This document shows positions 7,251-10,179 of a stretch of 64,000 bases of DNA, piece by piece. Source of the stretch: Dactylellina haptotyla (lineage: Eukaryota; Ascomycota; Orbiliomycetes; Orbiliales; Orbiliaceae); NCBI GenBank assembly GCA_031310005.1, contig CM062381.1, positions 248,001 to 312,000 of the forward strand. Reading direction: 5' to 3'. The notes beneath the pieces were generated by a model that saw only the letters and a list, made by a program, of their open reading frames with translations, ran no database searches and was not told the origin of the DNA. A program made the translations under genes and the position numbers. Every line of letters begins with the position of its first letter. Within the stretch, counting starts at the first letter, position 1.

Positions 7251-8961
7251 CTAACCGAAAATCAAACACCTAACCTCCACGCTCTCCCTCATCTTCCACC
7301 CCTGCTTGCTAGCCGGGTCCACAAACGCGGTGTGCGCACATCTACCCTCCGTCTCGGTATCAAAGCACATCAACAGAATAGCCTCATCGCTGTCCAACTC
7401 GGAGCAATAATACCACTTTTGCTCCTCATCGTGTTTGACACCCAGAGTAGCCCCCGTCCACTCGGGATACCGATGCTCGACTTCAACCAGATTATCCTTC
7501 TTCACGGTCTTCGTATCCGCGAAACACAACGGATGGCACACGACGGTGCCGTTCAACGGCATCCAGAAATTGATAAGCCTGACGCGACGGCTGAGTAGAT
7601 CCGGTGCGCGTTCCGGTAGGTGTCTGTGCACTCTCGCTGCGGCGGACCAGTTCGATTGGTCGACGTGGGTTCGCACCACGGGTCCGCGGTTGTGGTTTGG
7701 CCGGCGGATGGTGTGGTCGAAGATGAAGACTTCGTCGGCACCCAGGCGCTCCTGGAGGACCGATTGCAATCTTGGATAGAAGGACGATTTTATATTTTCG
7801 TCATCTCGCCAGTTGACGTCTCCGAAGGAGAGGTTTTGGAAGATCTGGAAGGCGTGCGAGTCGCAGGTGTACGAGGAGACGGTTGGGCGGATATCTTCCA
7901 GCTGGACGTCGTGGACCGCCGAACGAAAGTTGAACGATGGACCGCCGTCGGCAGGTGGTTGGACGTAGTTGTACGGGAGCGCATTTGGATCGGTTGGTGG
8001 GAGATAGAACGTAAGGGGGACGGTTATCGGGCCCGTGGATGGTTTCTGAACCGGTTTTGACGGCGCCGATTTGACAACGATTTGTCTATCCACCGATTGT
8101 TAGCTGACTCACTTTCACCGAGTTTCATGATAATCCTCACCCTTGGTGGAAATTGCCAGCATGGAAGTTGTCCTTCTTCAAGGCACCCTGATGGAAGTTA
8201 CCGGCATGGAAGTTCTTCTTCAGATCACCTTGATGAAAGTTGCCTGCGTGGAAATTCTGGCCGGTATGGAAATTGTCCTTCTTTGCCTCTCCTGCATGGA
8301 AGTTGCCCGCATGGAAGTTGCCCGCATGGAAGTTACCCGCATGGAAGTTCGCATCCTTATTCTCGCCAGCGTGGAAATTTTGACCTTCGTGGAAGTTTTG
8401 ACCTGCATGGAAATTCTCTCCAGCATGGAAATTCTCTCCAGCATGAAAGTTCTCTCCAGCATGAAAGTTCTCTCCAGCATGGAAGTTCTCGCCTGCGTGA
8501 AAGTTTTCTCCAGCGTGGAAGTTTTCGCCGGCATGGAAGTTTTCTCCAGCGTGGAAATTATCCTTCTTCACCTCGCCGGCGTGGAAATTCGACGAGCTCT
8601 CTCCGGCATGGAAGTTACCAGCATGAAATTTACCAGCATGAAAGTTACCGGCGTGAAAGTTGGAGTTGTTTTCCGTCTCGCCGGCATGGAAGTTTCCAGC
8701 GTGAAAGTTATCTTTGCCCTCCACCTTGACATCATTCACAAGACCTGCGTGGAAGCTAGATAATATCATGTCAGCATATCTCCAGAAGAGATGAAACATC
8801 CTATACGCACTTCTTATTCCTGATCAATTGAATCCCTTCATGGTAGTTCCGACGCTCCTCGTCGACCTAGCCAAAGCTCATGTTAGGAACAATACCGAAT
8901 AGCAACTTTGCAAGAGATCTCTACGAACCAAGCCCATGTGGAAATTGCACGCTGGCGCCAT
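7251..8961 (-). CDS. N-F-H-A-G repeat protein fused to CmcJ/NvfI-like dioxygenase domain
   Basis: Four minus-strand exons (8961-8929, 8866-8811, 8755-8141, 8085-7251) with introns of 62, 55 and 55 nt close exactly in frame, giving 512 residues. The start context is cacaATGgcg. Residues ~6-235 carry about 32 copies of N-[FY]-H-x-G, mostly NFHAG. The first two are NFHMG and NYHEG; later variants are NFHEG, NFHTG, NFHQG and KFHAG. Many copies are joined by a single Glu. Residues ~236-512 match the fungal CmcJ/NvfI/AsaB-type family of 2-oxoglutarate/Fe(II)-dioxygenase-like hydroxylases and desaturases: LTFYLPP at the start, THVDQS (H375, D377), then LINFWMPLNG and RCAHTAFVDP (R483, H486) as the rest of the putative metal and co-substrate site. 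Intron 2 interrupts a repeat unit, and intron 3 falls directly after the last unit. No signal peptide, membrane segment or KR site is seen. Repeats and enzyme domain are observed; the substrate is unknown. Confidence 0.85.
8141..8755 (-). repeat. coding tandem array of NFHAG units
   Basis: Exon 3 of the fused gene encodes 30 units of five residues, the first completed by splicing from exon 2. Nine consecutive units are spaced by single Glu (NFHAGE period 6, 18 nt). Other blocks are directly abutted (NFHAGNFHAG, period 5) or separated by short linkers: ETENNS, ESSS, EVKKD, ENKDA, EAKKD, DLKK, ALKKD. Codons for N, F, H, A and G vary from unit to unit (AAC/AAT, CAC/CAT, GCC/GCT/GCA) while the residues stay constant. 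Selection on the peptide would explain this better than recent DNA slippage alone. Confidence 0.95.
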
Positions 8962-10179
8962 TGTGATAGTTTAGCACCGATTGAAGCTCTGTAAAATAAT
9001 CAAGAATCTCAATTGACAGCTGGTACACTCAAATCAGACTACGATGATACTGACGGGGCCTCGGGCTACAATCCACTGCTGGCGGCGCACTATTTATACT
9101 TATCCCGTTCACATTCCTAAACGTCACCGCTTCCCCTCATTCCAACCCTTCCCGTCCCCGAACGCGGAAGATAACGCGACTGCCATCTCCTCCACCCGCT
9201 CGCCCTTTATTCCGAGTATAGATCCACGCTAATCAGCGGCAGAGAAAAAACAAGAGCCTAGTATACATGCACGTGTGTATGCATGCAATGCGTTCGAAAC
9301 CTCGCACGGCTTTCAGCTGAAGGAATTCCCAAAATCGCAGATCGACAACGCAACCCGCCCCTCCGGGAACATGTTGAACCTGATAAATGCGAGGGATTTC
9401 TCTCATTCGCCAACTCGGTTATCTTTTCGTCGGGGAATTTAGTTTCGATTGCGTGTAATAAATGCCAATTTTTGGACGGGGGTGGAGAGATCCAGATAGA
9501 CTTTTTCGTGGAGAACCCGGCTGAGCTTTCCCAGCCGGGGAGGATTTGCTGCGGTTAGTGGTTTGTGATAATGCATGCAAGTCGCGTCACAGCCAGAAGG
9601 AGGGATCGAGTGACGTAGGCTCTATTCTTCCCAACACCGAATCCGCCTTGGAACATCTGGGATCGTTCGAGATCTTCCTCTTCGGGCAAGCTCCAGATTC
9701 CAAGATCAAGATCGATATCGATCGATTGAAAACAAGGATGGTAGCTGCGAACTACAACAACAACACACGGCTTCAAAATCGCGAGATGGTTGTGATTATC
9801 CATTGAATGAGTGTAGTATTTGTGTTTATGCTAGCGAGCGACTATGGTGGGTGTTAAGTAACATCATACTATCGTATCATGTGTTTAATCAGGGGTCATT
9901 AGGAAACAAAATATTTTGGTCTGATGTATTGTATAAGAGGGGAAGAGAACAGGCCAGACATTCGACACCAACAGTCGCTCATACCTCAAATAAAACCTTT
10001 AAAAGTACAGGATCGAGAATGTAATCCTGAAGGGGGGTGGATATAATAAAGAGACGAGGATGGTTTTGTGATCACAACTTTGAGAGACATTCTAATAGGA
10101 AGAGGAAATTATTAAATAGAAACACAACTAGATGACTATCAGTACAGTCCACCGTCAACGACTCGGAATCACTTACCTT
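8962..10179. other. intergenic region
   Basis: Upstream region of the repeat-oxygenase gene (minus) running into the 3' side of the next minus-strand gene. Open frames near 9283-9806 show no recognisable protein or splice pattern. An octamer-rich spot near 9700 (atcaagatcgatatcgatcg) is locally palindromic. No RNA gene seen. Confidence 0.45.

Follow-up and report, generated by a model that had tools for sequence, protein, structure and literature searches.

The window analysed here, a stretch of 64,000 nucleotides from Dactylellina haptotyla, carries on its minus strand a predicted gene of four exons that, rebuilt from the DNA, closes in a single frame of 512 codons plus a stop codon (Table 1). 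In this frame an N-terminal array of short repeated units precedes an oxygenase domain, the arrangement that an earlier note on this DNA had read from it. The three predicted introns all follow the GT..AG rule, within each of them a CTRAY branch-like site begins 18-20 nt upstream of the 3' end, and the start codon lies in the context TATCACAATGGC, which we take to resemble the fungal Kozak sequence. Introns 2 and 3 each lie within a unit, so that splicing rebuilds the motif. As read from the splice phases, the interrupted codons are those for the N of an NFHAG (codon 30) and for the G of the last NFHQG (codon 235). We regard the unit-restoring junction as good sequence evidence for the intron 2 splice; the junction at intron 3 says less, since the Gly codon is completed whichever base comes third.

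Table 1. Predicted array-oxygenase gene and overlapping features, in window positions
Feature	Positions	Strand	Remarks
Exon 1	8929..8961	(-)	MAPACNFHMGL; NFHMG is the first unit
Intron 1	8867..8928	(-)	62 nt, GT..AG, phase 0
Exon 2	8811..8866	(-)	contains unit NYHEG
Intron 2	8756..8810	(-)	55 nt; interrupts Asn codon, residue 30, unit 3
Exon 3 (array exon)	8141..8755	(-)	615 nt; phase 2 at both ends
Intron 3	8086..8140	(-)	55 nt; interrupts Gly codon, residue 235, last unit
Exon 4	7251..8085	(-)	CmcJ/NvfI-family oxygenase domain and stop codon
Array, 32 [NK][FY]HxG	8141..8946	(-)	interrupted by introns 1 and 2; final base of last unit at 8085
H375 and D377, HxD of metal triad	7659..7667	(-)	align with NvfI H135 and D137
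W444, array-linked residue	7458..7460	(-)	in stretch matching NvfI substrate-gating loop II
H486, third metal ligand	7332..7334	(-)	aligns with NvfI H250
R501, conserved Arg	7287..7289	(-)	aligns with NvfI R265
NYHNG, unit-like	8957..8971	(-)	overlaps start codon; frame differs from the gene's
Two long ORFs	8082..8763	(+)	215 and 206 aa, opposite the repeat

Given its length and its phase at both ends, the array exon is skippable in frame, and its skipping would yield an array-less oxygenase of 307 aa. Across the six frames of the 64 kb, the N[FY]H.G motif occurs once outside positions 7251-8961, as the NYHNG that overlaps the start codon. This unit-like sequence is preceded by TTTTACAG, which resembles a 3' splice site, and may represent a remnant unit, an alternative first exon or a chance overlap with the start context. 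The two plus-strand ORFs were taken for shadows of the repeat and not for genes.

The oxygenase domain and its metal site

The earlier reading of the C-terminal part as CmcJ/NvfI-like was borne out by a profile search, in which residues 236-512 matched NF041278 nearly end to end (203.3 bits against a cutoff of 80, 5e-60, profile positions 9-262 of 263); CmcJ/NvfI was the only match for the domain in NCBIfam. Compared with NvfI (7de2), the same residues gave 1.6e-25. By its profile match and its predicted ligands, we assign the domain to the CmcJ/NvfI oxygenase family. The metal triad that the earlier note had recognised is kept, with H375, D377 and H486 aligning with the NvfI ligands, and R501 occupies the place of NvfI R265, which we take to have a role in 2-oxoglutarate binding. 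H375, D377, R483 and H486 are invariant in 13/13 array-bearing proteins, and the columns of the triad (2-His/1-Asp) and of the C-terminal Arg are invariant in 54 aligned rows. We infer Fe(II)/2-oxoglutarate (2OG) chemistry for the domain from this homology. NvfI numbering is given here as the chain number minus 20, which places the Trp at 199 as in PMC8292354; the excerpt of that paper prints the NvfI triad as His135-His137-Asp250, and the chain sequence reads His, Asp, His at these positions. The window protein itself departs at four positions kept in at least 43 of 47 others, and one of these departures, R410 to Met, suggests that its own active site may have drifted.

One residue of the domain, Trp444, is associated with the array. 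It aligned with NvfI K205 in one alignment and with D206 in another, both within loop II, which in the excerpt of PMC8292354 spans Trp199-Pro209 and moves upon substrate binding. Trp was found at this column in all 13 array proteins and in 0/35 of the near array-less relatives; in a wider set it was present in 2/84 array-less proteins (P0050 and the N-terminally cut P0089). The usual residue of the array-less set at this point of loop II is Arg (60/84). This wider set leaves out P0085, P0086 and three proteins of at least 700 aa, and 3/84 of its members are gapped at the column. The association was found post hoc by looking through all columns, nine of which satisfied a looser criterion (at least 12/13 array proteins against at most 30% of array-less ones). 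Two of the nine lie in mobile loops of NvfI: besides W444 in loop II, this holds for G369, which falls in loop I. Outside any loop, F337 is about as array-specific as W444 (12/13 vs 1/84). Since loop II makes up about 11 of the 260 domain residues used, a chance match there is not very unlikely, and we take the position of W444 as a hint.

Conservation and history of the array

The translation of the predicted gene contains 31 N[FY]H.G units and one KFHAG between residues 6 and 235, and this total of 32 [NK][FY]HxG units agrees with the earlier count of about 32. Their earlier description as a pentapeptide array is imprecise: unit starts lie 5 to 16 residues from one another, and no Pfam pentapeptide-repeat match was obtained. 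The same two observations, irregular spacing without a strict five-residue phase and the missing Pfam match, ruled out an A(D/N)LXX solenoid of the Pfam pentapeptide-repeat type. Spacing reaches up to 56 residues in relatives, and irregularity of this kind fits a flexible tether better than a solenoid.

At the DNA level, the 32 units of the window gene have 29 distinct 15-mer spellings, which rules out a recent DNA expansion. Codon choice varies freely at the conserved positions. The Asn position is encoded by AAC in 22 units, AAT in 9 and AAA (Lys) in 1; the Phe position by TTC in 23, TTT in 8 and TAC (Tyr) in 1; His by CAT in 20 and CAC in 12; and Gly by GGC in 11, GGT in 10, GGA in 10 and GGG in 1. 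Over all unit pairs we obtained a pS of 0.92 against a pN of 0.07, using a site-counting method in which pS can exceed saturation. The units are thus near-saturated at synonymous sites, and together with the near-absence of the motif elsewhere in the 64 kb this argues that the array is not a product of chance.

The same constraint is evident among the related proteins. With leave-one-out anchoring over about 240 units from the N-terminal portions of all 13 array proteins, some of which are near-copies, we recovered N in 235/245 cases (95.9%), F or Y in 235/244 (96.3%), H in 235/240 (97.9%) and G in 235/243 (96.7%), while unit position 4 is free, with Ala in 177/235 (75%). Eight representative array proteins gave the same conservation pattern as all 13. 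In four disjoint close pairs, with every aligned residue pair counted from both sides, differences amounted to 24/527 (4.6%) at the N/F/H/G positions, 321/1258 (25.5%) in the linkers and 126/2038 (6.2%) in the catalytic domain. Units were defined there by an exact motif match in either sequence, which favours conservation somewhat, and P0008/P0012 is the noisiest of the pairs (18/90 core positions changed). By these estimates the units appear to evolve about as slowly as the enzyme, and the linkers at roughly four times its rate. We take the array to be selected at the peptide level.

The earlier note had proposed looking for such arrays beside this domain in other fungi. A protein search with the full protein returned 84 matches, of which 12 carry 4 to 29 strict units ahead of the domain and the other 72 carry none. 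These 12 further predicted proteins, some near-copies of one another, share the architecture of the window protein; the species named among them are Acephala macrosclerotiorum, Coleophoma cylindrospora, C. crateriformis and Hyaloscypha finlandica, genera that we take to be Leotiomycetes. Across the 13 array proteins the units are kept; the number of strict units ranges from 4 to 31, and linkers and spacing vary as well. A search with the array alone gave two matches lacking the domain, P0085 with 11 strict units and P0086 with 3. By eye both look frame-broken, and the array of P0085 is close to that of P0006. A profile of the 13 array proteins gave 82 matches, 15 of them new (P0087-P0101), and none of these 15 contains a strict unit. 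The protein searches were word-based and scored the best ~8000 candidates within length limits, so that some array-less clade members or more distant arrays may have escaped them. In the genome of the window (39.8 Mb, 11 contigs), the array matched at one place only and the domain at nine, one of them the array gene.

On the inferred tree of 86 rows, the 13 array proteins fall on one side of one branch with 99/97 support, and a tree of 55 rows, with distant rows left out and partial sequences included, supports the same branch at 90/90. The window protein lies on a long branch with P0009, a compact relative of 333 aa with 4 strict units, whose domain is 55% identical; identity to the domains of the other listed array relatives is 44 to 47%. 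The simplest reading of this distribution would be a single fusion event, retained while the domain diverged to about 45% identity.

Candidate functions of the array

Beyond what is evident in the sequences (the fusion, an intact metal site, motif-level constraint, a shared history and one array-linked lid residue), we estimate a probability of roughly 0.4 that the protein is a probably non-secreted Fe(II)/2OG oxygenase that binds and oxidises its own N-[FY]-H-x-G array, which stays on the protein. The N-terminus would be flexible and multivalent, offering many N-[FY]-H-x-G units for recognition, and the tether suggested by their irregular spacing would present them to the active site. The units would be bound by the oxygenase domain of the same or of a sister molecule, with a remodelled lid loop containing Trp444 accommodating each unit, and family chemistry makes hydroxylation or desaturation of the invariant Asn, Phe/Tyr or His the most plausible reaction. 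Hydropathy gave no signal peptide, no cleavage site is conserved and no cluster was recognisable among the ORFs scanned, which suggests that the modified array would then stay on the protein as a matrix, a metal ligand or a switch responsive to O2, iron or 2-oxoglutarate. Somewhat more tentatively, we propose that such a self-modifying enzyme oxidises dozens of its own units and so produces a densely modified protein array and not a small molecule; this array might keep a cumulative record of O2, iron or 2OG, or serve as a metal-binding matrix. To our knowledge, the characterised CmcJ/NvfI relatives act on small molecules only, tailoring natural products, which counts against self-oxidation; a lineage in which an enzyme of this family is coupled to a strictly preserved peptide motif suggests a protein or peptide substrate, possibly with autocatalysis by a non-heme iron oxygenase. 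Shared history, constraint on four of the five unit positions and the post hoc array-linked Trp lend indirect support to the array as the enzyme's own substrate.

A binding partner of the array would impose the same constraint on the motif, which speaks against self-oxidation. The strongest rival reading is an unmodified multivalent ligand or scaffold. The array would in that case bind a partner protein, self-assemble as a condensate or fibre, or locate the enzyme, and the substrate of the oxygenase would be some small molecule that has nothing to do with the array. A short linear motif of any kind could show such constraint on N, F/Y, H and G, array copy number and linkers vary freely, and the nearest characterised domain, NvfI, acts on the small molecule asnovolin A according to the excerpt of PMC8292354. 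A scaffold alone, however, does not predict that each complete array should be found on one domain, a weak point in view of the word-based, length-limited searches, nor that array bearers should have a lid-loop residue in common, likewise a weak argument; we consider this explanation less likely than self-oxidation.

The richness of the array in histidine (32 His in 235 residues in the window protein; each of the 12 relatives has 5 to 38 in its N-terminal part) would suit a store of Fe, Zn, Cu or Ni, acting as a metal buffer or as a supply for the iron site. The sole match of the whole protein in Pfam, at E 0.3, was to the Plasmodium histidine-rich proteins (PF05403), which also carry short His-rich repeats. 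This compositional match is weak, at 14.7 bits far under the cutoff of 45.8, so that the protein was not assigned to that family, whose members have another motif and no enzyme domain. Plain chelation does not need N, F/Y and G to be as constrained as H, and each array contains few Cys (0 to 4), making a metal store improbable.

The earlier note had also proposed that the protein is a peptide precursor, and this part was not supported. In Kex2-processed repeat precursors of the dikaritin/UstA type, a signal peptide is followed by repeats with dibasic sites between them. A simple Kyte-Doolittle hydropathy analysis detected no signal peptide in the 13 array proteins (first-60 maximum -0.39 to 0.85), and no conserved dibasic or cleavage site was found between their units: dibasic pairs in the N-terminal parts number 0 in 3/13 (P0001, P0002, P0007), 1 in 8/13, 2 in P0012 and 5 in the window protein. 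Kex2-processed cores were rejected on these grounds. The surroundings of the gene were scanned in Pfam over 41 of the 57 little-overlapping window ORFs of at least 110 aa (2 of the 57 are the gene itself and 14 were unscanned) and over 7/13 ORFs of at least 90 aa in the 10 kb before the window; the scan used ORFs and not spliced genes, so that misses are possible. No PKS, NRPS, P450, protease or UstYa-type match was obtained among the ORFs scanned in the window and the preceding 10 kb. Above the Pfam cutoff, the window ORFs encode an NAD(P)-binding protein, alcohol dehydrogenase, septin, enoyl-CoA hydratase, TMEM33, aminotransferase class V, GYF, TPR, FAD/BBE oxidase and Sec7/BIG, and the preceding ORFs a POT transporter and a GNAT acetyltransferase. 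The aminotransferase (29.5-30.2 kb) and the BBE oxidase (51.7-53.6 kb), both of types capable of belonging to clusters, are each over 20 kb away from the array gene. On the ORFs scanned, we rejected the view that the locus is a biosynthetic cluster of the ordinary kind.

A fusion of precursor and enzyme from which small modified peptides are released would have the layout of the fused burpitide pathway (excerpt of PMC12186524) and of borosins (excerpt of PMC7878506), and a POT-family (PF00854, peptide transporter) fragment at a distance of some 16 kb (L012:296-1114, G000:C3:238296-239114) is the sole neighbour that could speak for a peptide pathway. Against release stand the missing secretion and cleavage signals, the irregular linkers, the lack of tailoring-type matches among the ORFs scanned and the distance of the two cluster-capable genes. 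We consider a released RiPP-like peptide less likely than a self-oxidised array that stays on the protein, and give it only a small chance.

An erroneous gene model, with array and oxygenase on separate transcripts or fused by annotation, might account for the NYHNG overlying the ATG in another frame and for the array-only prediction P0085, and is rendered almost negligible by introns 2 and 3 lying inside units and by the 12 other predicted proteins that join array and domain.

Comparison with known systems

FIH and similar protein Asn/His hydroxylases also belong to the Fe/2OG enzymes and act on Asn or His residues within repeats. The substrate of FIH is presented in trans, and the enzyme belongs to another 2OG-oxygenase branch than CmcJ/NvfI; it differs on both counts from the array protein, whose activity is proposed here from sequence. 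SptF, which we take to represent a different 2OG-oxygenase branch, was set aside as a comparison. NvfI shares the HxD...H triad and the Arg with the array protein, but its solved chain of 298 aa is too short for an array.

Among fused systems, enzyme and precursor, often multicore, form one autocatalytic polypeptide in the fused burpitide pathway described in the excerpt of PMC12186524, so that the plant BURP-domain cyclases likewise combine an oxidative metalloenzyme with a multi-unit peptide. They use a copper BURP domain and release their peptides, whereas the array protein has a predicted Fe/2OG-type domain and no release site was seen in it. Borosins such as OphMA (excerpt of PMC7878506) resemble it as a fungal enzyme fused to the peptide segment that it modifies, self-modification being a proposal for the array protein; they differ in having an N-methyltransferase, a C-terminal core and a clustered protease, whereas the array protein has an oxygenase, its array is N-terminal and no cluster of that kind was recognised. 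Neither a BURP nor a borosin methyltransferase domain was found, with the whole protein searched in Pfam and the domain in NCBIfam. In layout alone, an enzyme and a repeated peptide on one polypeptide, the array protein corresponds to a fused RiPP precursor, but it is a member of neither burpitides nor borosins. If the proposed self-modification is true, it would constitute a further kind of precursor-enzyme fusion beside these two.

In the open-licence literature, a scope that excludes most subscription papers, we found no description of an array-oxygenase fusion and nothing relevant on oxygenase-precursor fusions or His-rich repeats; the letters NFHAG led there to one paper, on pig butyrylcholinesterase. 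The N-[FY]-H-x-G motif provides a search key for related proteins in fungal genomes.

Other fusions of the CmcJ/NvfI domain were predicted among the relatives, with amino-acid permease domains in P0059 and P0061 (Daldinia) and with O-methyltransferase domains in P0081 and P0101 (Hypoxylon, Clohesyomyces); these may be real or may be merged gene models. Elsewhere in the genome of the window, a minus-strand frame of NGHT/NGHA repeats lies near an array-less CmcJ/NvfI paralogue (L013, G000:C1:4992001-4999500) and is probably ordinary low complexity. Three domain fragments lie near each other within G000:C4:299555-304924 (299555-299830, 300170-300427 and 304670-304924), and their proximity suggests tandem or intron-split CmcJ/NvfI paralogues.
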